Source: Planctomycetota bacterium
Lineage (GTDB): Bacteria > Planctomycetota > Phycisphaerae > Phycisphaerales > Phycisphaeraceae
Assembly (NCBI GenBank): GCA_024279865.1
Contig: JAJRRC010000017.1
Coordinates: forward strand, 1-53,884
Direction: 5' to 3'
Length of the DNA stretch: 53,884 nucleotides
This document shows positions 2,751 to 32,930 of the stretch, piece by piece. The translations under genes and the position numbers were made by a program. The stretch's first letter is position 1, and each line of letters opens with the position of its first letter. The notes under the pieces were generated by a model that saw only the letters and a list, made by a program, of their open reading frames with translations, searched no databases and had not been told where the DNA came from.

Positions 2751-3137
2751 TGGAGCCGGGGGGATTCGAACCCCCGTCCCGTGACAGTTGATAGATCGCC
2801 TCTACACGTTTAGTTGCTGATTTAATCTCAAAGACGTCACCATCAACAACAACGTTGACGTCTTCCAGCCTGAGAAAGGTTTAATCCGCGGACGCTAAGG
2901 CGTCGTCTTTGGACGAGTCTGCTGGTTTTACGCAAGAAAGGTCACCGCAGACAATTGACCTTCTCACGAGACAACCTATTTAGGCTGCCATGCGCATTGG
3001 CTGATTAAAGCCGATGCGGCCGATGACAGAAGTAGTATCTTCAGCATCTATGTTTTTGTACGTAGTTTTACGAGGCCAACGTACACCTCGACGTGCCACA
3101 ACCTACCGGAGCTATCCGGTCGATACCAGTCGGCCCC
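2751..3137 (-). ncRNA. ssrA: Transfer-messenger RNA (tmRNA)
   Basis: The 3' end shows a T-arm with TTCGAAT loop flanked by G/C stems, then CGGCTCC and A. The final CCA is not encoded. Base 3137 begins GGGGCCG, which pairs with that 3' strand over 7 bp including the G-U wobble at position 3 needed for alanine charging. A reading frame at 3045-2980 starts after the sequence CATAGAT with GCT (Ala), reads AEDTTSVIGR, and ends ...MRMAA followed by TAA. It would be a 21-codon tag, longer than the usual 8 to 15 residues, with MAA rather than LAA at the end. The RNA is about 387 nt. It rescues stalled ribosomes and tags the incomplete peptides for proteolysis. An integrase gene lies directly downstream. 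Confidence 0.92.
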
Positions 3138-15737: not shown

Positions 15738-16559
15738 ATGGTTTTGAATGTAAAATACACCATGGGCGTTTTATTTCTCAGCAGCGTTTTTGTGTTGCCT
15801 TGCTTGGGACAGATTGATGCGGTGAGTCGCGCTCGTCATGACCTGAAGCTGGGGTTTACCGTGCCGGGCCGGGTGTTGAATCGTTTCGTCCATCCGGGCG
15901 ACCGCGTCAAAACGGGCGAACGCTTGATCGAACTCGAAGACAAAGAAGGTCTTGCCCAGATTGAAATTTGGCAATTTCGGTCTCAAAGCACCGTGGCCAT
16001 TGAACAAGCTCAGGCCAGTTTGGAACTGGCCCGAACCGAAGAAAAACGCACCCGTGAACTCGTCGCCAAGCACGCGGCCGTTCCCTTTGAACTCAAGCGA
16101 GCGGAGCTGACCACCAAGGTTCAGGAATTGGCCTTGATCAAAGCACAGATGGAGCAAGTTGAAGCCAAGCTTCAATTGGAAATCACCCGCGCCCGCCATG
16201 ACAGTTATACCCTCTTGGCACCGATGGGCGGCCGCATTGAATTGATCCTCGTGGACAAAGGTGAAGTCGTCGAAAATCTCAAACCCGTGGTGCAACTCGT
16301 CGTGACCGATCCTTTGAGAGTCGATGCCCGCGTCCCGCTGGAACAAACCAAAACCTTAAAAGTCGGCAATCAAGCATGGGTCCAATCCGGACAAACCAAA
16401 CAAATTGTCGTTGGCAAAATCATCCACATGGCAGAAGTTGCCGACTCCGCCAGTGATACCCTGCTCGTTCGGGTGGAATATCCCAACCCGCAATTACACA
16501 CCGCAGGCGAACAGGTCATCGTTTACCTGACAGAACCCAAAGGCGTCACCAGCGAATGA
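15738..16559 (+). CDS. HlyD/RND-type periplasmic adaptor protein
   Basis: I take the ATG at 15738 (AAGG nine bases upstream), giving 273 residues with a signal peptide (about 1-25, ending FVLPCLGQ). The open frame upstream reads through the palindromic element and is not protein-like. After the signal comes a lipoyl-type half (FTVPGRVLNRFVHPGDRV), a coiled-coil hairpin (about 75-150) and the second lipoyl half with LLAPMGGRIELI. Such adaptors link an inner-membrane pump to an outer-membrane exit. It overlaps the next gene in ATGA and forms one operon with it; no pump permease or ATPase is visible next to it. Confidence 0.85.
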   Translation: MVLNVKYTMGVLFLSSVFVLPCLGQIDAVSRARHDLKLGFTVPGRVLNRFVHPGDRVKTGERLIELEDKEGLAQIEIWQFRSQSTVAIEQAQASLELARTEEKRTRELVAKHAAVPFELKRAELTTKVQELALIKAQMEQVEAKLQLEITRARHDSYTLLAPMGGRIELILVDKGEVVENLKPVVQLVVTDPLRVDARVPLEQTKTLKVGNQAWVQSGQTKQIVVGKIIHMAEVADSASDTLLVRVEYPNPQLHTAGEQVIVYLTEPKGVTSE

Positions 16560-18574
16560 CACAAACACCTGCCACATCACAACCGGTCAACAGCTGGGGC
16601 CAACTGATCCATCAGGTCAACTTGTCGCCTGACTTGCTCACCTTTCACCGAGCGATTTTGGACTTGCAATGCAAAGTCGTCGGCGGCGAATATGGCGCAC
16701 TGTGGACCATGGGACCCGACAACAAACCCATTATCAAAGCAGCTTGGCCAGCCCCGCTGGAAAACAGTGAAGCAGCCTCGACCGTGCGCGAGCTTTTGGA
16801 AAAAAGTGTCCAGGGAGGCTTTGAACGCAAAGTCAGCCATGTCCTCAAAGTTGCCCCTGAAGGGTCAAACGATACGCCAGGCATCGGCGCTCATGTGTTC
16901 GTGACCGTGCTACGATCTGGCGAAGAAATCGCAGCCGTCACCACCGTCGTCGCAGACTGTCAAGACCCCAACCTGTTACAAAGCACATTGCCGATGCGGG
17001 AACTTGCTGGCGGACTGTACGAAAACTTTATGCTTCGTCAGCAGATCATCCAGACCGCCACCGAAGCGGATCAGGTCCGTAGTGCCATGGCCTTGTTGGC
17101 GACCTCCCAAGAAGCCGAGGGCTTTAAAGGCGCTGCTTTGAATCTGGTCAATGAACTGGCGAGACAACTCAAGTGCGCCCGCGTGACACTGGGCTGGATC
17201 AAAGGGCGTGGCATCACCCTTCGGGCCATGAGCGATACCGAGGAACTCAAACGTCACAGTGAACATGCCCGCTTGTTGGAACTGGCCATGGGGGAATGTC
17301 TGGATCAAGAGCAACCGATCATTTACCCCTTTCCTGTGGGAGCTGAACCCCTGCTCACCGAAGCTGTCACCTACGCCCATCGAAAACTCGCCGGGCCTGA
17401 CAGTGGCATCTACATTGTTTCGATTCCATTGCGTTTGCGTGATGAATGGCTAGGCGTGTTAACCCTGGAACGTGAAACGCCGATTGATGGCCTATTGGTC
17501 ACGCAACTGCAATTGCTCGCCGATGTGATTGCCCCTCAACTGGCAGACCGCTATGAAACCGACCGCTGGCTCACGGGCCATGCGTGGAACAGCGTCAAGT
17601 GGGCTGCTTCTTATTTGGTCGGTCCCAAGCATGTGGTTTGGAAGATGGTTGCGGTGTTGGTTTTTCTTTGCCTCATGTTCGTGGCGTTGGGAAAAATGCC
17701 TTTTAAGATTTCTTCGGAATTCACCTTTGAAGCCCAGTCCAAGCGGATTGTCCCGGCCCCGTATGAAGGAGATTTAGCCAAAGTTCATGTACGACCTGGC
17801 GCAGCCGTCGAAGCGGGCCAAGTTTTAGCACAACTCAATGCCACGGAACTCAAATTACAATTGGCCGAATCCGCCAGCCAACTGCGCGTTTCTTTACTTC
17901 AACGCCAGCAAGCCCGAGCGGAAAATGAAATCGCCACCGCTCAGCAGGCTGCCGCCACCATCAAACAGATTCACGCCCGCATTGCCTTGCTTGAATACCA
18001 AATTGAAAAGTCCGTCATTCGTTCGCCCATTGATGGCGTGGTCCTTGTCGGCGATTGGTACGACAAAGTCGGCGGCGTTGTGGAAAAGGGCAAGCCCATG
18101 TTCGAGGTCGCTCCACTTGAAGACCTCATTCCTGTTTTGCGTGTGAGCGAAGAAGACATTGATGAGCTTCAAAAATACATTAGAACCAATGGTGCGTTTC
18201 CAACAGGCAAGCTCACCACGCGAAGTCAGCCTGATCAGGATTTTGAATTTTTCGTCCGTCGCATTGTTCCACTGGCAACTTCGGTCAACAATGCCAATGT
18301 GTTTGAAGTCCGTAGCCGTCTGGCGGTGGGCGATTGGTCTGCGAACAAGGAATACCAGGCCAATCAAACGGTCGTCCATGATGGGATTCTTTATCGAGCC
18401 GCCCGCGACAGTCAAGCAGTCTCTCCCCAAACCGATGACCAAATTTGGGTTCGAGCCAATTGGCTTCGCCCGGGCATGGAAGGCCTCGCACGTGTAGACA
18501 TGGGCAAACGCCCCATCTGGTGGGTCGCCACCCATCGCATCACCGACACCCTTCACTTATGGACATGGTGGTAA
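16556..18574 (+). CDS. GAF domain and HlyD-type adaptor fusion protein
   Basis: The 672-residue product has GAF-like sensory sequence in the N-terminal half (about 25-160 and 175-330), one membrane segment (about 360-380, KMVAVLVFLCLMFVALGKM), and then a HlyD-type adaptor: lipoyl half (about 395-430), a coiled-coil (about 430-490) and the returning half (IRSPIDGVVLVGDW). The GAF part should be cytoplasmic and the adaptor part periplasmic. Residues about 591-636 look like a small carbohydrate-binding CBM5/12-type module (W-x5-Y-x5-VV-x3-G-x-LYRAARDS...W). It follows the first adaptor with a 4-base overlap. It may couple export to a bound cytoplasmic signal; substrate unknown. Confidence 0.8.
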   Translation: MTQTPATSQPVNSWGQLIHQVNLSPDLLTFHRAILDLQCKVVGGEYGALWTMGPDNKPIIKAAWPAPLENSEAASTVRELLEKSVQGGFERKVSHVLKVAPEGSNDTPGIGAHVFVTVLRSGEEIAAVTTVVADCQDPNLLQSTLPMRELAGGLYENFMLRQQIIQTATEADQVRSAMALLATSQEAEGFKGAALNLVNELARQLKCARVTLGWIKGRGITLRAMSDTEELKRHSEHARLLELAMGECLDQEQPIIYPFPVGAEPLLTEAVTYAHRKLAGPDSGIYIVSIPLRLRDEWLGVLTLERETPIDGLLVTQLQLLADVIAPQLADRYETDRWLTGHAWNSVKWAASYLVGPKHVVWKMVAVLVFLCLMFVALGKMPFKISSEFTFEAQSKRIVPAPYEGDLAKVHVRPGAAVEAGQVLAQLNATELKLQLAESASQLRVSLLQRQQARAENEIATAQQAAATIKQIHARIALLEYQIEKSVIRSPIDGVVLVGDWYDKVGGVVEKGKPMFEVAPLEDLIPVLRVSEEDIDELQKYIRTNGAFPTGKLTTRSQPDQDFEFFVRRIVPLATSVNNANVFEVRSRLAVGDWSANKEYQANQTVVHDGILYRAARDSQAVSPQTDDQIWVRANWLRPGMEGLARVDMGKRPIWWVATHRITDTLHLWTWW

Positions 18575-18586
18575 AAAAGCAGAATG

Positions 18587-18620
18587 TTTTTTTAAGCTAT
18601 CAGCTATCAGTAAGAGTAAG
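18587..18620 (+). repeat. Left flank repeat of the S23-type gene unit
   Basis: A T run followed by AAGCTATCAGCTATCAGTAAGA is repeated in inverted form at 19028-19074, bracketing the frameshifted four-helix-bundle gene. Solo copies occur at 29931-29952 and 32891-32930. Confidence 0.75.
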
Positions 18621-18640
18621 AATTCAGAAGGAATCACCAG

Positions 18641-18995
18641 ATGAAGTTTGAAGAAATGGATATTTGGAAAAGATCTGCCTGGCTTTCAGCGGAGTTGTAT
18701 AAACATTTTTCCCAGACCAAGGACTATGGCTTTCGTGACCAAATTACGCGTTCAGGCTTATCGATTCCCAGCAATATTACAGAAGGCTCTGAAAGAGGTT
18801 CCGACAAAGATTTTGCTCGATTTCTCCAATACGCAAAAGGTTCCTGTGGAGAACTAAGAACGCAGGGTTATATCGGAATGGACCTCAACTATTATCCCAC
18901 AAGAAACTGGAAAACATTGGATACAGGAAACACAAGAATTATCCGCCATGCTCGCTAGCTTTATTAACACAATCCGAAACCAAACAGAATCGTAA
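18641..18995 (+). pseudogene. Four-helix-bundle (S23 / 23S rRNA intervening-sequence type) protein, frameshifted
   Basis: The reading frame begins MKFEEMDIWKRSAWLSAELY and carries the family signature with SIPSNITEGSERGS, as expected for the roughly 120-residue four-helix-bundle proteins often coded in 23S rRNA intervening sequences. After about residue 85 it leaves the family pattern and stops at 18958. Shifting by one base in the TATCCCACAAG stretch restores a family-like last helix (QELSAMLASFI) that ends with TAA at 18993-18995. A one-base insertion in the CCC run is the simplest explanation. The gene is bracketed by inverted repeats and splits the adaptor operon. Function of the family is not settled. 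Confidence 0.8.
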
Positions 18996-19027
18996 AAAAC
19001 AAACCATCAGCCCTCCGAATTCGATTC

Positions 19028-19074
19028 TCTTTTCTTACTGAAAGCTGATAGCTAAGAGCTAATAGCTAAAAAAA
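19028..19074 (-). repeat. Right flank repeat of the S23-type gene unit
   Basis: On the minus strand it reads T8, AGCTATTAGCTCTTAGCTATC, AGCTTTCAGTAAGAAAAG, matching the left flank in inverted orientation. It ends directly at the ATG of the M50 gene, so it has displaced whatever ribosome binding site that gene had. Confidence 0.75.
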
Positions 19075-21240
19075 ATGGAACGACCTACTTTTAGTCCAAA
19101 TTGGAGCCGCGTCAGTCGATTGACCCCGACGTTGCGGCCGCACGTTCAGATGACCCGGCAACTGTTCCGTGGTGAGCCGTGGTACGTCGTGCATGACCCG
19201 ATCAGTAACAACTTCTTTCGACTCAACCCCGTGGCTCACCATTTCATAGGCCTCCTCGACGGCAAGCGAACCGTCGATGAGGCCTGGACGCTGACCATGG
19301 ACCGCTATGCCGATGCAGCGCCAACCCAAAATGAATCTGTCCATCTGCTAGGCCAACTCAATCAGTCCAACTTGCTACGCGTGGACTTGCCCGTCGATGC
19401 CCAGCCATTGCTCGAACGCGCCCGACGACGAAAAATGGGCCGTTGGACCGGGCAGGCCATGAGTATTTTGTTTATCAAAATCCCCCTGTTCAATCCGAAT
19501 CAAATGCTCGATTGGCTGACCCCTCTGGCGAAACCACTTCTAAACAAAGTGGGGTTGATCCTTTGGGCCATCTGGCTGATCTACTGCGGCCTCCAGTTTG
19601 GACCGCACCTAGGAGCCTTTATCCACAATGCTGAAAGTGTGCTATCGCCTACAAACTGGGGTTGGATGATTCTGCTGTTCATCGTCACCAAAGCGATCCA
19701 CGAACTGGGCCATGGCCTCGTCTGTAAACACCTCGGCGGCGCGGTCCCCGAAGTCGGCATCATGATGTTGATTATGATGCCCGCGCCCTACGTCGATGCC
19801 ACCAGCTCCTGGAGCTTCTCCAGTCGCTGGCAACGATTTCTTGTCAGTGCTGCGGGCATGATGTTTGAACTGGCCATTGCCGGGGGCGCTGCGCTGGTCT
19901 GGCTGTATGAAACCCAACACAATCCCGGATCACTGACCCAGCAATTGGCCTACAACATCGTCTTTTTGGCCTCGATCACAACCATTCTGTTTAACGCCAA
20001 TCCGCTGCTGCGATTCGATGGCTATTACATGCTGGCGGACTTCCTGGAAGTCCCCAACATGTATGACCGGGCAACCAAACACATCCAATGGATCATCCAA
20101 CGCTACGCCTATGGCCTTGAAAATGCCATGCCCGTGAGTACCTCTCAAAGTGAACAATGGATCTTGCTTGGCTACGGCATTACCAGCCAAGTCTACCGCC
20201 TCTTTGTCCTCACCGGCATCATCCTGTTCATCTCAGGTCAACTGCTCACCCTCGGCCTGCTGCTGGCAGCGTGGTCCTTTATTGCCTGGGCATTGGTCCC
20301 GCTGGGCAAACTGATTCGCTGGCTGTTCACCAGCCCATTCCTCATAGAACACCGCATCCGTGCTGTGGGTGTCACGGTTGTTACATTGGCAATTTTCCTG
20401 GGGGTCGTCGGCTTGCTTCCTGTTGACGAACACAAACGCACCGAAGGCGTGGTTCAAAGCGCCGTCCGCATGGATATTGCTGTGCAAACCGATGGCTTTG
20501 TTTCGGAGGTGCTTGTGAGCCCAGGTGAAAAAATCACCCAAGGTCAAATCATGATCCGCGCTGAAAACCCTTCACTGCGATCACGCCAAGCAGAACTCAA
20601 AGCAGAACTCGTTCGCCTAACCATCGAACAACGTAAATCACTGGTCGAAGATCCCGTCGCCACACGCATCACCAAAGCACAAGCACAAGCCATCCATGAA
20701 GAACTCAATGATCTGGAACATCGCATTGACAGCTTGATCCTGCGATCGCCACAAACAGGCATCCTCATCGGCCAAGCACTCAACGAACTTCAAGGCCAAT
20801 ATCTCACGCGAGGCCAAGTCATCGCACGTGTGGTGGACCTCAAACAATTGCGAATCACAGCCTTGGTGAGTCAATCCCAAAGCGCTGCTGCTTTTTTCAA
20901 AAACATCCGCCAGGTGGAATGCCGCCTCGCAGGTAATTTGCCTGTGACGTTTGAGAGTGAATTGCTCAAGGCTTTTGATTCAGGACGCAATTATTTGCCT
21001 CATCCGGCCCTTGGACAACATGGTGGCGGACAGATTGCCATGGATGCACAAGATTCACAGGGTCGTCGCACGTTGCGGCCGCAATTTGAAATGTGGCTCA
21101 AACTGCCTGAACAAACGGCCACCAGTCGAGCTTTGCTCGGGCAACGGGTCTACATTCGCTTTACACTGCCCAAACGCCCCCTGCTTTGGCAATGGATCAC
21201 CAAAGCCAAACAAGTCATTCAAGATCGATTACAGTTGTAA
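19075..21240 (+). CDS. Membrane M50-type metalloprotease-like protein with PqqD-like and adaptor domains
   Basis: The 721-residue product has three parts. Residues about 18-105 resemble the PqqD-like winged fold (GEPWYVVHDPISNNFFRL ... LLDGKRTVDEAW). A multi-helix M50/site-2-protease-like membrane domain follows (about 150-430), with HELGH at 209-213 and a later NPLLRFDGYYML segment supplying the third ligand. A HlyD-type lipoyl and coiled-coil region fills about 450-710. The start lies directly at the end of an inserted repeat and has no ribosome binding site; family-like sequence begins within a few residues, so the ATG is kept. It belongs with the two adaptors upstream. Whether it cleaves a protein or works as an export platform cannot be told. 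Confidence 0.82.
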   Translation: MERPTFSPNWSRVSRLTPTLRPHVQMTRQLFRGEPWYVVHDPISNNFFRLNPVAHHFIGLLDGKRTVDEAWTLTMDRYADAAPTQNESVHLLGQLNQSNLLRVDLPVDAQPLLERARRRKMGRWTGQAMSILFIKIPLFNPNQMLDWLTPLAKPLLNKVGLILWAIWLIYCGLQFGPHLGAFIHNAESVLSPTNWGWMILLFIVTKAIHELGHGLVCKHLGGAVPEVGIMMLIMMPAPYVDATSSWSFSSRWQRFLVSAAGMMFELAIAGGAALVWLYETQHNPGSLTQQLAYNIVFLASITTILFNANPLLRFDGYYMLADFLEVPNMYDRATKHIQWIIQRYAYGLENAMPVSTSQSEQWILLGYGITSQVYRLFVLTGIILFISGQLLTLGLLLAAWSFIAWALVPLGKLIRWLFTSPFLIEHRIRAVGVTVVTLAIFLGVVGLLPVDEHKRTEGVVQSAVRMDIAVQTDGFVSEVLVSPGEKITQGQIMIRAENPSLRSRQAELKAELVRLTIEQRKSLVEDPVATRITKAQAQAIHEELNDLEHRIDSLILRSPQTGILIGQALNELQGQYLTRGQVIARVVDLKQLRITALVSQSQSAAAFFKNIRQVECRLAGNLPVTFESELLKAFDSGRNYLPHPALGQHGGGQIAMDAQDSQGRRTLRPQFEMWLKLPEQTATSRALLGQRVYIRFTLPKRPLLWQWITKAKQVIQDRLQL

Positions 21241-21881: not shown

Positions 21882-24800
21882 TTAGCGTCGTCGTCGACGA
21901 CGTGGGCGACTTTTCTGATATTTTTGACCAGAAGACGCCGTTTTTTCTGTTGATTCATGACTGGCCTGAGCTGCTCGGGCTCGACGTTGCTTGCGGGTCA
22001 GCAGGGCATCATCATCGTGACCGCCGATATGTTCAGCAGCCTGAAGGTTCGCTCGCTGTTCACTGGTCCCACTGGTTGCTGCCAGATGAGCCATGTCCGC
22101 GGCATCTTCGTGCTTGGCATCACCTTGGCCATAAACACTGCGGTGTTCAACTTCGGCCGTGAGGCGGGCACGGAAGATCAAGTCTGTCACACGGTTACGA
22201 ACAACTTGTTGCATTTGTGCAAACTGGTTAGCGCCTTCACGTTTGTATTCAAGGCGTGGGTCTTTTTCTGCATAGCCACGCAACCCCACCGCGTCCTTGA
22301 GTTGATCCATGGCATACAGATGATCCTTCCAGGCCATGTCCAGAATCTGAAGCAAGACAAACCGTTCTAACTCGGTGAGTTCGGTTCGCAAAACAGCTTT
22401 GCCTTGCTCAATCAAAACATCACGCGGATCTTGATCGCCAGCCAAATGCTTGGGATCAAGTGTCTGGCCAAAACGTTTTTCAAACCAAGTGGCCGGGTCA
22501 ACCCCCTCAGCCATACCTTGATCCACAGCCTGTTCAAGGGCGTTGCCATGAATCCATTTTTCACCTTCGGCAATCAGTGTTTTATGAATATCCTGAATGG
22601 GCGTTTGGAAAATTTCTTCAGGCTTCAATTCCAAATCAAACCGATTCTTCGCCCAACGGCAAAGATGTTCTGCGGCCCATGGACCATCCTGCTGCGCAGC
22701 AGTATGGGTCATTTCCAAAATGAAGTCTACTGGATAATCCACTTCCCGCTGCTCGTACGCTTTTTGCGCCTCTGCAAAAATTTGTTCGGACATCTTATTC
22801 GGATTATCGACGTCAATTTCCTGAGGATCAAGCGTGATGCTGAACTTCGTTTGCGCCCAATCAGCAAGCTGCTTGGGAGCGTACAACGGGTCGAGGAATT
22901 TTGAGACGCCCGCCAAGTTTCGCTTGCCCACCTGCTTGATAGCAATCTCGGTCAAACGAAGTTTTACTTCCTCAATATTCATCTGGCGAAGTTGGTTTTG
23001 CTTAAGGTCCACCTGGAAACGACTCATCGCCCAGCTACTCAAACCCCGCAAGTCCCACTGATCCGGAGACAAATCATTGCTCATGTATTCGCCAAGGGTC
23101 ACGTCAATAATCTGTGCTGCCTCAGCAGAAGCTTCCTTGCGAAGCACTGCTTGTAAATCGACTAGGTCATCGGTGTGCAATTTGGACGGGTCCACACTGA
23201 TGTCCAGCGTCTGACGACACCACTCGGCAATCTGTGTGCGAACGTAATCCTTGTGTAAATATTCGTTCACTGCATCGTCAATGGCATCGTAGATATAGTC
23301 GAAAATCATCTGGTCGATGGCATACCCTTCGAGAACTTCCTGGCGGATGCCATAGAAAGCATTTCGCTGATGTTCCATGACTTCGTCATATTCCAGAAGG
23401 TTCTTACGAATTTCGTAGTTGCGTTCTTCGACCTTGCGTTGGGCGCGTTCGACACTTTTGGTGAGCCAACGATGCTCAATGGCATCGCCCTCTTTCATTC
23501 CCAGTTTGGACAGTGCCGCCAAGGTGGTCTTGCCTGCAAACAGGGACATGAGGTTATCTTCAAGGCTGATGAAAAAGCGGGAAGAACCTTGATTGCCCTG
23601 ACGGCCGGCACGTCCACGAAGCTGATTATCGATGCGCCGAGATTCATGCCGCTCGGTCCCGATGATATGCAAGCCACCCATGGCCTCGGTATCGGGATAA
23701 ACTTCCAACCGATGCAACTGGAACTGAGGCAGACAATCCAACACCGCCATCAACTCATCATCACTCATGCCCGGCAAATTGTCCGTGTCATGCCAAGTCG
23801 GCGAAGTGAAATATTTGTAAAGCAACACTTTCTGCCACCAAGTAATTTTATGCCACTGCACACGCCAGCCATATTCGCCGACCCAGTATTCGAGCATCTT
23901 GCGGCGGACCTGTTTATCAGACAGGTTCTTCATTTCATCATTGCTTAATCCCACATCACGCTGGGCAAGCCTACGATAGACCAACGCAACAATCTGATCG
24001 TCGGTCATGCTCACATCTGCATCGGGCGTTAACAAATCTCGCTGTTGCCAATGTCGAATCAAATTTTCACGTGGAATCGGTCGCAAACGAATATCCGTAC
24101 CACGACCAGCCATGTTGGTAGCGATCATGACAGCCCCCAAAGCACCGGCACTTTCAACGATCAATGCTTCGCGTTCATGCTGCTTGGCGTTGAGAACTTC
24201 ATGCTTAATGCCATCTCGACGGGTGAGCATTTGCGACAGACGTTCAGAAGATTCCACACTGGTGGTTCCGACCAAGACCGGACGGCCGATGTCTTGCTGA
24301 AGCTTGATATCATCGAGAATAGCGGTCCATTTGTCTTTGCCTGACAGATAAATAATGTCTTCTTGGTCGTGACGAATCACGGGCTTGTTGGTGGGAATAC
24401 AAACAACGTCCATGCGGTAAACTTCGTTGAATTCGGTGGCCTCGGTAATGGCAGTACCCGTCATCCCGGCGAGTCGTTTGTAGAGCTTGAAGAAGTTCTG
24501 AATGGTGACGGTTGCAAGCGTCTGGGTTTCTTCTTTGATTTTGACACGTTCTTTGGTTTCGACCGCTTGGTGCAAGCCATCGGACCACTGACGGCCGATC
24601 ATCAGACGGCCGGTGAATTCATCGACGATGACGACATCGCCATCTTGCACGACGTAATCTTTATCACGCTGATAAATCACATGGGCACGCAGCGCATTTT
24701 CCAATAAATGTGGCACGTCCATGTTGTTGCCAACATAGAAGGAACCGATGCCTGCAACTTTCTGGGCTTCAGCCACACCTTCATGGGTAAGGTGGGAAGC

Positions 24801-25994
24801 TTTTTTCTCCATCTCGACTTCATAGTATTGAATGTGTTGATCTCGAATGGCTTCAAGCTCAGGAATGGTTGCTTCGACTTTCGCCATTTCTTCGCGCATG
24901 CGTTCACTGGCAGCCTTGTCGCGGGAGTTGCGGATTTCGCCTTCGAGTCCTTTGCTGAGCATGATGGCTTTTTGCACTTTGTCCTCAGCAGCGGTCCACG
25001 GTTTTTGCTTTTGCATGAGGTGTCGCGCCACGCCGTCGGCCATGCCGTAACGGGGAGCATCGTCGTGGGCGGGACCTGAGATAATCAGAGGGGTTCTGGC
25101 TTCGTCGATAAGGATGGAATCGACTTCATCGACGATCACAAAGTCACGGGTTTTTTGGACTTGTTCCGCAGCCGAGAGTTTCATGTTATCTCGGAGGTAG
25201 TCAAAGCCGAATTCACTGTTTGTGCCGTAAACAACGTCACAACTGTAGGCTTCGACTTTCTTTTCAGGCGGCTGCATGTGAAACGGATGAATCGCGCCCA
25301 CGGTCAAACCCAGCCAATAGTAAAACGGGAAGACCCAATCGCGGTCACGCTGCACGAGATAGTCGTTGACGGTCACGACATGTCCACGCATGCGTTCGAG
25401 GCAGCTCAGATAGCACGCCAAAGGGGCGACAATGGTTTTACCTTCACCGGTTTTCATCTCGGCGATATTGCCTTCGGCCAGGACCATGCCGCCTAGCAAC
25501 TGTACGCCGAAGGGGCGAGCACGAAACGGCGGACGACTTTCGGGGTGTAGTTCCCGAATCGTGTTGTATATCTCCACGGGGATTTCGACCTGCATCCAAC
25601 CGGGGACAAGTTCGCTGTGGCCGGGGACTTCCAATGGCTCGGTCTGGGCCATTTGTGAAGCAACCCGGTCGTAGACTTCTTTCATCGCAGGTTGCAAAAC
25701 AGAGGTGTCAAATGCCAGATCAGGATTGAAAATCGCACGAATTCCCACCGAGCGATCCATCACCTCACGAGCGACAGCCATGGCTTGGGGGATCAAGCTG
25801 GTGAGCTTTTCACCTTGCTCAATTTGAATGCGGAACGCTTCGGTTTTCGCCAAAAGCTCTGCATCCGTAAGTGGACGCACATCAGGTTCTAAAGATTCAA
25901 TGTCCGCAACGCGGCGGTCATAAGCTTTAATCAAACGATCATTACGCGTACCAAAGACCTTGGTCAGCGATTTGCTAACGAGAGAAACAACCAT
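21882..25994 (-). CDS. secA: Preprotein translocase ATPase SecA, greatly extended
   Basis: SecA drives proteins through SecYEG with ATP. Walker A MKTGEGKT is at 180-187 and Walker B FVIVDEVDSILIDEAR at 285-300; motif NMAGRGTD (627-634) and QLRGRAGRQG (791-800) belong to the second motor half. The protein has 1370 residues against about 850-900 usual. Part of the surplus is in the helical wing region: five units of about 60 residues at roughly 923, 985, 1043, 1111 and 1167 share L-x2-W-A-x2-RF-x-hydrophobic-x-L-x-P. The C-terminus is a run of Arg (RPRRRRRR) with no Cys-rich SEC-C zinc motif. Start is ATG at 25992-25994. Confidence 0.95.
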   Translation of the reverse strand: MVVSLVSKSLTKVFGTRNDRLIKAYDRRVADIESLEPDVRPLTDAELLAKTEAFRIQIEQGEKLTSLIPQAMAVAREVMDRSVGIRAIFNPDLAFDTSVLQPAMKEVYDRVASQMAQTEPLEVPGHSELVPGWMQVEIPVEIYNTIRELHPESRPPFRARPFGVQLLGGMVLAEGNIAEMKTGEGKTIVAPLACYLSCLERMRGHVVTVNDYLVQRDRDWVFPFYYWLGLTVGAIHPFHMQPPEKKVEAYSCDVVYGTNSEFGFDYLRDNMKLSAAEQVQKTRDFVIVDEVDSILIDEARTPLIISGPAHDDAPRYGMADGVARHLMQKQKPWTAAEDKVQKAIMLSKGLEGEIRNSRDKAASERMREEMAKVEATIPELEAIRDQHIQYYEVEMEKKASHLTHEGVAEAQKVAGIGSFYVGNNMDVPHLLENALRAHVIYQRDKDYVVQDGDVVIVDEFTGRLMIGRQWSDGLHQAVETKERVKIKEETQTLATVTIQNFFKLYKRLAGMTGTAITEATEFNEVYRMDVVCIPTNKPVIRHDQEDIIYLSGKDKWTAILDDIKLQQDIGRPVLVGTTSVESSERLSQMLTRRDGIKHEVLNAKQHEREALIVESAGALGAVMIATNMAGRGTDIRLRPIPRENLIRHWQQRDLLTPDADVSMTDDQIVALVYRRLAQRDVGLSNDEMKNLSDKQVRRKMLEYWVGEYGWRVQWHKITWWQKVLLYKYFTSPTWHDTDNLPGMSDDELMAVLDCLPQFQLHRLEVYPDTEAMGGLHIIGTERHESRRIDNQLRGRAGRQGNQGSSRFFISLEDNLMSLFAGKTTLAALSKLGMKEGDAIEHRWLTKSVERAQRKVEERNYEIRKNLLEYDEVMEHQRNAFYGIRQEVLEGYAIDQMIFDYIYDAIDDAVNEYLHKDYVRTQIAEWCRQTLDISVDPSKLHTDDLVDLQAVLRKEASAEAAQIIDVTLGEYMSNDLSPDQWDLRGLSSWAMSRFQVDLKQNQLRQMNIEEVKLRLTEIAIKQVGKRNLAGVSKFLDPLYAPKQLADWAQTKFSITLDPQEIDVDNPNKMSEQIFAEAQKAYEQREVDYPVDFILEMTHTAAQQDGPWAAEHLCRWAKNRFDLELKPEEIFQTPIQDIHKTLIAEGEKWIHGNALEQAVDQGMAEGVDPATWFEKRFGQTLDPKHLAGDQDPRDVLIEQGKAVLRTELTELERFVLLQILDMAWKDHLYAMDQLKDAVGLRGYAEKDPRLEYKREGANQFAQMQQVVRNRVTDLIFRARLTAEVEHRSVYGQGDAKHEDAADMAHLAATSGTSEQRANLQAAEHIGGHDDDALLTRKQRRARAAQASHESTEKTASSGQKYQKSRPRRRRRR

Positions 25995-32890: not shown

Positions 32891-32930
32891 TTTTTTTTAA
32901 GCTATTAGTTATCAGCCTTCAGTAAGAAGA
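32891..32930 (+). repeat. Solo copy of the S23-flank repeat
   Basis: It reads T8, AAGCTATTAGTTATCAGCC, TTCAGTAAGAAG. It matches the left flank at 18587-18620 and begins at the gpsA stop codon. Confidence 0.65.

Follow-up and report, generated by a model that had tools for sequence, protein, structure and literature searches.

A PqqD-M50-HlyD fusion operon of the Phycisphaerales as the probable envelope part of a SecA2-dependent, ABC-less secretion system for giant LEPR-x-LL proteins

We analyzed a stretch of 53,884 nucleotides from a Planctomycetota bacterium (contig JAJRRC010000017.1, positions 1 to 53,884, assembly GCA_024279865.1; hereafter the window), in which three genes between 15738 and 21240 encode a small HlyD adaptor, a GAF-HlyD protein and a PqqD-M50-HlyD fusion. 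These genes probably form the envelope part of a type I-like secretion system that depends on the ATPase SecA2, has no ATP-binding cassette (ABC) transporter and exports surface proteins of large to giant size that bear an N-terminal LEPR-x-LL motif. The evidence comes from the composition of the cluster and its conservation, its co-occurrence with SecA2, its co-occurrence with and adjacency to LEPR-x-LL proteins, the PqqD fold of the fusion and its intact M50 site. The window genome is a 3.42 Mb assembly, 95.7% complete, whose nearest named relatives are Phycisphaeraceae assemblies.

All three genes of the initial annotation were confirmed at its coordinates, on the forward strand, and Pfam backed every domain that it named; it overlooked a fourth gene inside the interval (18641-18958), which is treated below. 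The small HlyD/RND-type (resistance-nodulation-division) periplasmic adaptor (15738-16559) matched TIGR01730 (106 bits, cut-off 94.9), PF16576 and PF13437; its open reading frame (ORF) is open from 15561, with a signal-peptide-like stretch after the ATG at 15738. The second gene (16556-18574) encodes a GAF domain (PF01590, residues 196-329, 28.5 bits, 2.5e-6), a transmembrane segment and a HlyD adaptor (PF13437/PF16576 at residues 390-591). The third gene (19075-21240, 721 aa) encodes the PqqD-Peptidase_M50-HlyD fusion identified by Pfam and NCBIfam matches, with Peptidase_M50 at 31.7 bits (cut-off 27.2) and a HlyD barrel-sandwich region at residues 451-604 (20425-20886, forward strand; PF16576, HlyD_D23, 36.1 bits at 466-604; TIGR01730 41.4 bits at 451-603), so that HlyD_D23/HlyD_3 was matched in all three genes. 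The fusion is present as a single copy in the window genome. Among 151 genomes of the order sampled for the co-occurrence of fusion, SecA2 and LEPR-XLL proteins, 91 carry a full-length homologue (E<1e-50), and judged by this distribution and by the invariant M50 residues described below the module is conserved and not a chance assembly. By sequence, the fusion had no relative in the PDB except a weak match to MacA, and the phage collection searched yielded no relative.

Comparison of 65 loci (the window, four from genome contigs and 60 from whole genomes) revealed the partners of the fusion. Genes were called by codon-usage scoring, as antisense ORFs win in GC-rich loci when length alone is used, and then clustered. 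The GAF-HlyD gene was present in 61 loci (cluster c1) and the small HlyD adaptor in 43 (cluster c2), while a SecA-type ATPase of 620-750 aa was found in 39, nearly always directly downstream of the fusion; DUF3467 genes (12 loci) and OEP (TolC-type) genes (7 loci) also occurred. No ABC gene recurred among the neighbors of these loci. Nor did any conserved short precursor family or maturase recur there, DUF3467 being the only recurrent small protein. The SecA-type proteins are SecA2-like: of 20 examined, all had the SecA_DEAD and preprotein cross-linking domains and 19 had the P-loop, while the wing/scaffold domain (PF07516, SecA_SW) was matched in just one, weakly (E 0.009). The wing/scaffold domain of SecA carries the two-helix finger for SecY.

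The window genome also possesses a SecA2-like ORF (684 codons, contig C14, 36896-38884; E=1.5e-293 to the SecA2 alignment), which is unlinked to the fusion (contig C33). Such separation is also found in intact close relatives, for example 438 kb vs 6,118 kb on the one closed contig of genome G031. Across the 151 genomes, fusion and SecA2 were both present in 89, fusion only in 2, SecA2 only in 1 and neither in 59 (Fisher p=2e-38), and in the sole SecA2-only genome (G136) a fragment of the fusion lies 0.3 kb from SecA2 on the same contig. The description of the module as one without a known pump thus applied to the window, where no ABC, RND or maturase gene was found among the neighbor proteins scanned, but not to the genome, and the operons of relatives, although free of a recurrent ABC gene, often contain a SecA-type ATPase and in some cases a TolC-type channel. 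A full-length SecA (21882-25994, reverse strand, 1370 aa; PF07517 342.8 bits, PF21090, PF01043, PF07516 171.5 bits) adjoins the cluster, and we rejected it as the dedicated motor: it carries all four SecA domains, and the order survey revealed a separate SecA2. It is probably the housekeeping SecA.

Large proteins encoded near the operon in several loci share an N-terminal LEPRxLL, the motif of NCBIfam NF012209, and this family co-occurs with the fusion. NF012209 was matched in 60 of the 91 fusion-positive genomes and in none of the 60 fusion-negative genomes of the order (60/31/0/60, p=3e-19; tables are read as both/fusion only/partner only/neither), a p-value that, like the others given here, overstates the association, as the genomes are related and the counts are not independent. 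The same association was found within family f1 (34/6/0/5, p=3.8e-4), within family f2 (20/13/0/12, p=3.3e-4) and in a sample of the phylum outside the order (7/38/1/188, p=4e-5), and therefore the concern about kinship is lessened. In the window genome itself, a 12,459-codon ORF on contig C20 has an N-terminal part that reads MPRRMKRSASGRREQKTRRRRF...QTLEPRVLLTT (MPRRMKRSASGRREQKTRRRRFRNFFQKQSVKTTIFDHQLQTLEPRVLLTTL). A second candidate, on contig C110 (locus L133, 4332-8506), has a subtilase-containing frame with ALEQRQLLSG upstream in another frame, and this gene is probably either frameshifted in the assembly or decayed. We also considered as a substrate the 2,119-aa gene of cluster c20, which comes after the fusion in three close relatives, and set it aside, as it lacks the LEPR motif and starts with a membrane segment.

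The leaders that carry the motif were compared in 21 examples, which gave the consensus E-x-L-E-P-R-x-L-[LF]-[SD]-A, in which E and R are invariant because the pattern itself requires them. They are 12-67 residues long and mostly basic (net charge -1 to +12). On the Kyte-Doolittle scale their best stretch of 15 residues averages between only 0.5 and 1.75, so that a hydrophobic core is absent. By these properties the LEPR leaders do not qualify as ordinary Sec signal peptides, and one would expect them to have a dedicated receptor; among the conserved components only the PqqD domain has a fold known to bind leaders.

Full-length homologues of the fusion were also found by a protein search of plasmids, and the plasmid neighborhoods were then read. 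Among the Pseudomonadota operons, LEPR or a variant motif was present in 14 of the 16 large neighbors with a readable N-terminus and absent in those of Magnetospirillum and Phyllobacterium; Ensifer, Sinorhizobium and Rhizobium johnstonii were left out of the 16, since the N-terminus of their large neighbor fell outside the stretch read. In eight operons of planctomycete type the large neighbor begins with the motif, namely Pseudosulfitobacter (ALEPRFLLSAD, a giant of 12,919 codons), Alisedimentitalea (QLEPRLLLAAD), Methylosinus (TLEPRVLLNAD), Thalassospira (PIEPRILLSAD), Pontibrevibacter (PMEPRVLLSAD), Mesorhizobium (ALEPRLLLSAD), Pseudohalocynthiibacter (TYEPRLLLSAD) and Accumulibacter (VLEPRILLDAT). 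The other neighbors in these operons are DUF3467, SecA2, an RND-type adaptor, TolC and SapC; SecA2 is labelled 'prepilin peptidase' or 'DEAD/DEAH box helicase' in some records, and the Pseudosulfitobacter protein, when read, is a SecA. A second variant without SecA2 consists of TolC, adaptor, HlyD and M50-HlyD genes behind a large protein that starts with LExRx[LMV][FY]D[AG] and often carries DUF4347, and was found in Kosakonia, Azospirillum, Burkholderia, Variovorax (16,240 codons), an E. coli wastewater plasmid and Cupriavidus.

Several further features of these operons were observed. The SapC gene (PF07277) lies between the M50 and SecA2 genes in Pseudosulfitobacter (locus L128, 17260-18081, 245 bits) and beside the giant in Alisedimentitalea (locus L139, 2558-3355). 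DUF3467 proteins (~95-150 aa) are encoded between the giant and GAF-HlyD genes in many operons, and they could be chaperones of the giant. The 62 kb plasmid pRR4-35_6 of Pseudohalocynthiibacter apparently consists for more than half of one giant LEPR gene across the record start, followed by the secretion operon. In the variant without SecA2, the giants on the Kosakonia, Azospirillum, Burkholderia, E. coli and Cupriavidus plasmids carry DUF4347 or are Ig-like; three tail-fibre-like genes follow the Kosakonia operon, and tail-fibre-like genes also occur near the Azospirillum and Burkholderia operons.

The PqqD domain of the fusion (residues 18-105, 19126-19389, forward strand) was matched by PF05402 at residues 37-101 (28.3 bits, cut-off 23.4), the weakest Pfam domain match of the cluster, and the same match was obtained in 53 of 66 fusion homologues (E<0.01). 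An AlphaFold2 model of residues 1-120, built from five sequences, had a mean predicted local distance difference test score (pLDDT) of 77.9 and a predicted template modelling score (pTM) of 0.69, and showed three strands (25-31, 34-41, 46-50) followed by three helices (52-60, 67-78, 85-97). In Foldseek, ranks 1-6 were six chains of lasso peptide recognition elements with the leader peptide bound (probability 0.94-0.99, E only 0.035-0.15), and VIA-align, over 80-85 residues, gave Z of 7.6 for 6jx3, 7.3 and 7.2 for TbiB1 and 5.8 for PqqD itself. All these Z scores are slightly below 8, and the fold call therefore rests on three concordant lines, the Pfam match, the predicted topology and what the top-ranking structures are, which together bear out the PqqD-like fold first proposed for these residues.

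The M50 site is likewise intact. In the zinc motif HELGH (residues 209-213, 19699-19713, forward strand) H209, E210 and H213, and in the second motif NPLLRFDG (residues 309-316, 19999-20022, forward strand) N309 and D315, are identical in 65 of 65 homologues, with P310 in 64 and G316 in 63. The two motifs fit the HExxH and N/D-P-x-x-x-D-G patterns of active M50 site-2 proteases. The alignment thus upholds the putative M50 protease of the initial annotation, and the protease site is under selection because its five key positions are invariant. Among named NCBIfam models, that of the daptide intramembrane metalloprotease (NF041824) comes closest (172.6 bits vs a cut-off of 300, residues 18-402), while the YydH/LiaK epipeptide metalloprotease model NF058609 reached 39 bits, below its cut-off of 225. 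By these scores the PqqD-M50 part is a relative of the daptide metalloprotease and not a member of that family.

From these observations we propose how the system would work. The cytosolic PqqD domain of the fusion would bind the LEPR-x-LL motif of the substrate, as the recognition elements (RREs) of ribosomally synthesized and post-translationally modified peptides (RiPPs) bind their leaders; that this domain reads the motif is the main point that we infer, by analogy of fold. SecA2, encoded on contig C14, would supply an ATP-driven push, and the chain would cross the inner membrane at or beside the M50 membrane domain. In the periplasm, a conduit leading to a TolC-type channel would be built from the HlyD parts of the fusion together with the GAF-HlyD protein and the small HlyD adaptor. 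The M50 site may cleave the leader or clear a gate, and the GAF part may adjust the activity. Motif recognition, cleavage, the membrane route and the direction of transport are predictions. It had been suggested that the M50 protein could itself be the export or processing component: an export role fits the proposal and the M50 site is intact, but the module is not motorless, given SecA2, and the idea of M50 as a pore was already published. We further advance, tentatively and with more doubt than conviction, that the system is a separate secretion class, in which an RRE-protease-adaptor fusion reads LEPR-x-LL, a SecA-derived motor without the SecY-engaging domain drives export, and an M50/HlyD/TolC conduit dispenses with SecYEG, with members in Planctomycetota and Pseudomonadota and a SecA2-less branch on plasmids of Enterobacteriaceae.

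Several points weigh against the proposed secretion system, besides the relatedness of the genomes and the modest Z scores given above. The evidence is wholly genomic. An AlphaFold2 model of the full-length fusion was set aside (mean pLDDT 54, pTM 0.26), so a channel could not be judged. The enterobacterial and Azospirillum variant has neither SecA2 nor a PqqD domain detectable by Pfam. In Planctomycetota, most LEPR-x-LL genes are distant from the operon. A regular-expression scan of 63 planctomycete loci picked up 8 motif proteins vs about 1 expected, the expectation being a family-model background from a different detector. Moreover, 31 fusion-positive genomes, the window genome included, have no NF012209 match. 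The exact LEPRVLL of the C20 giant scored 13.2 bits with this model, below the cut-off of 17, and the model therefore probably undercounts.

The alternative that we take most seriously, although we would still place it clearly on the less probable side, retains the same machine and substrates but takes the giants across the inner membrane by way of SecYEG, with SecA2 or the housekeeping SecA as the motor; the fusion would then act after translocation, serving both as receptor and as leader peptidase and passing the chain on to HlyD and TolC. The DEAD, P-loop and preprotein cross-linking domains retained by SecA2 (20, 19 and 20 of 20), the full-length SecA next to the window cluster and the need of the SecA2-less variants for another inner-membrane motor all suit such a route, which is hard to reconcile with a SecA2 whose SecY-engaging wing/scaffold domain is recognizable, weakly, in only 1 of 20 proteins, and with leaders that have no hydrophobic core. 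A RiPP-type maturation and export system, in which a short precursor is bound and cut by the PqqD-M50 fusion, as in the daptide or epipeptide (YydH/LiaK) pathways, and the adaptors export the product, would account for the nearest named families (NF041824 and NF058609) and for a fold typical of precursor recognition; both models, however, scored under their curated cut-offs, and this explanation is quite unlikely because no short precursor recurs in the 65 loci, where no maturase recurs either and the recurrent partners are SecA2 and the giants. The short peptide precursor at first regarded as the likely substrate is therefore given up in favor of the large to giant LEPR-x-LL proteins.

We also regard as unlikely that the module serves small-molecule or drug efflux or the sensing of envelope stress, with GAF as the sensor, M50 as the site-2 protease of a regulator and an indirect link to LEPR through large, surface-rich genomes. 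GAF and M50 domains are indeed common in signalling and the adaptors resemble RND adaptors, but there is no inner-membrane pump, the LEPR giants, DUF3467, SecA2 and TolC recur together on unrelated plasmids of Pseudomonadota, LEPR proteins are absent from all 60 fusion-negative genomes of the order, and the giant neighbors would be left unexplained. Least probable of all is a degenerate remnant, that is, a system decaying in the window genome, with SecA2 and giant unlinked and the operon split by a mobile element. The insertion of a four-helix-bundle gene inside the operon and the location of SecA2 on another contig would fit decay; against it, none of the ORFs is disrupted, the catalytic residues are preserved, the SecA2 and LEPRVLL giant ORFs are intact, SecA2 is unlinked in intact relatives too (G031), and the insertion sits between genes.

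The overlooked fourth gene belongs to that insertion. It encodes a four-helix-bundle 23S rRNA intervening-sequence protein (23S_rRNA_IVP; 18641-18958, forward strand; PF05635 98.1 bits, NF008912 136 bits, TIGR02436 91.7 bits), the passenger of an element which a repeat search found to be bounded by a 21-bp inverted repeat with arms 95% complementary (18595-18615 and 19033-19053). The gap between the GAF-HlyD and fusion genes is 500 bp in the window vs at most 197 bp in the 55 relatives' loci measured, a difference which marks 18595-19053 as inserted into the operon and as no component of the secretion system. The repeat AGCTATCAGCTATCAGTAAG (20-mer, at most 3 mismatches) has 163 copies in the 3.4 Mb window genome, one of them at window 32907-32926, while a control pattern gave 0; several copies are gene-less inverted pairs about 65-150 bp apart, and PF05635 occurs once in the genome. 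These repeats form a family resembling miniature inverted-repeat transposable elements, possibly with one gene-bearing copy. In the Phycisphaerales, PF05635 genes lie between inverted repeats composed of imperfect 7-bp tandem units (above the shuffled control in 28 of 31 loci; self-match of the flanks 0.59 at offsets 7 and 14 vs 0.32-0.44 at other offsets and 0.33-0.37 within the gene), whose unit varies between genomes. Heptameric repeats have been described upstream of the same kind of four-helix-bundle gene in the Coxiella intervening sequence (PMC4990558). Elsewhere in the window, a tmRNA gene lies at 2751-3137, with a tag (AEDTTSVIGRIGFNQPMRMAA) longer than usual.

Previous work by Kamneva, Poudel and Ward in 2015 described a conserved locus of a secondary SecA_DEAD protein with type I secretion-related proteins, called its role 'completely unknown', suggested M50 as a possible pore and noted unlinked SecA copies (PMC4452313); that paper mentions neither PqqD nor LEPR and proposes no substrate. 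We found no later assignment of a function to this locus in the open-access literature (subscription papers were not covered) and no export route for LEPR-XLL proteins in the open literature. By gene content the window cluster is a member of that locus: it shares an M50 protein with HlyD, a GAF protein with HlyD, a HlyD/biotin-lipoyl protein, a secondary SecA_DEAD in the genome and the absence of an ABC transporter. A secondary SecA next to the M50 gene is missing from the window, whose only SecA is the full-length one on the reverse strand, but the unlinked copies allowed in that description mean that membership is not excluded. The locus is thus already known, while the substrate class and the proposed receptor appear to be new. 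Bacteria of several phyla encode LEPR-x-LL proteins of 2,000 to 16,000 residues without an ordinary signal peptide, and joining the Kamneva locus to these giants gives both a testable function, together with a receptor domain of known leader-binding fold; some of the operons lie on plasmids of culturable bacteria such as Methylosinus, Thalassospira, Azospirillum and Kosakonia. Operon and giant occur together in Methylosinus sp. C49 and Thalassospira marina, and an operon of this kind (META1p2402-2399) is known from Methylobacterium extorquens AM1. Should SecYEG prove dispensable, the system would be a separate class.

Compared with known systems, the cluster resembles type I secretion (HlyB-HlyD-TolC, LapBCE) in its HlyD adaptors, in the TolC-type channel of relatives and in giant, repeat-rich surface substrates, but it has no ABC transporter, SecA2 is the candidate motor and the candidate signal is N-terminal (LEPR-x-LL). 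It shares with the daptide metalloprotease NF041824 a PqqD-like N-terminus followed by an M50 membrane protease, whereas here a HlyD adaptor is fused on and neither a peptide precursor nor the daptide enzymes are present. With the RiPP recognition elements (PqqD, lasso B1, heterocyclases) it has in common the fold of residues 18-105, best matched by TbiB1 and lasso B1 with the leader bound; here the domain is joined to a membrane protease and an adaptor, and its proposed ligand is the N-terminus of giant proteins. The neighboring giants bear the annotation LEPR-XLL (NF012209) in public plasmids, a name that denotes a sequence motif. Relative to the Kamneva locus, the present analysis adds the PqqD/RRE domain, the LEPR-x-LL giants, the DUF3467 and SapC neighbors and the SecA2-less variant in Enterobacteriaceae.

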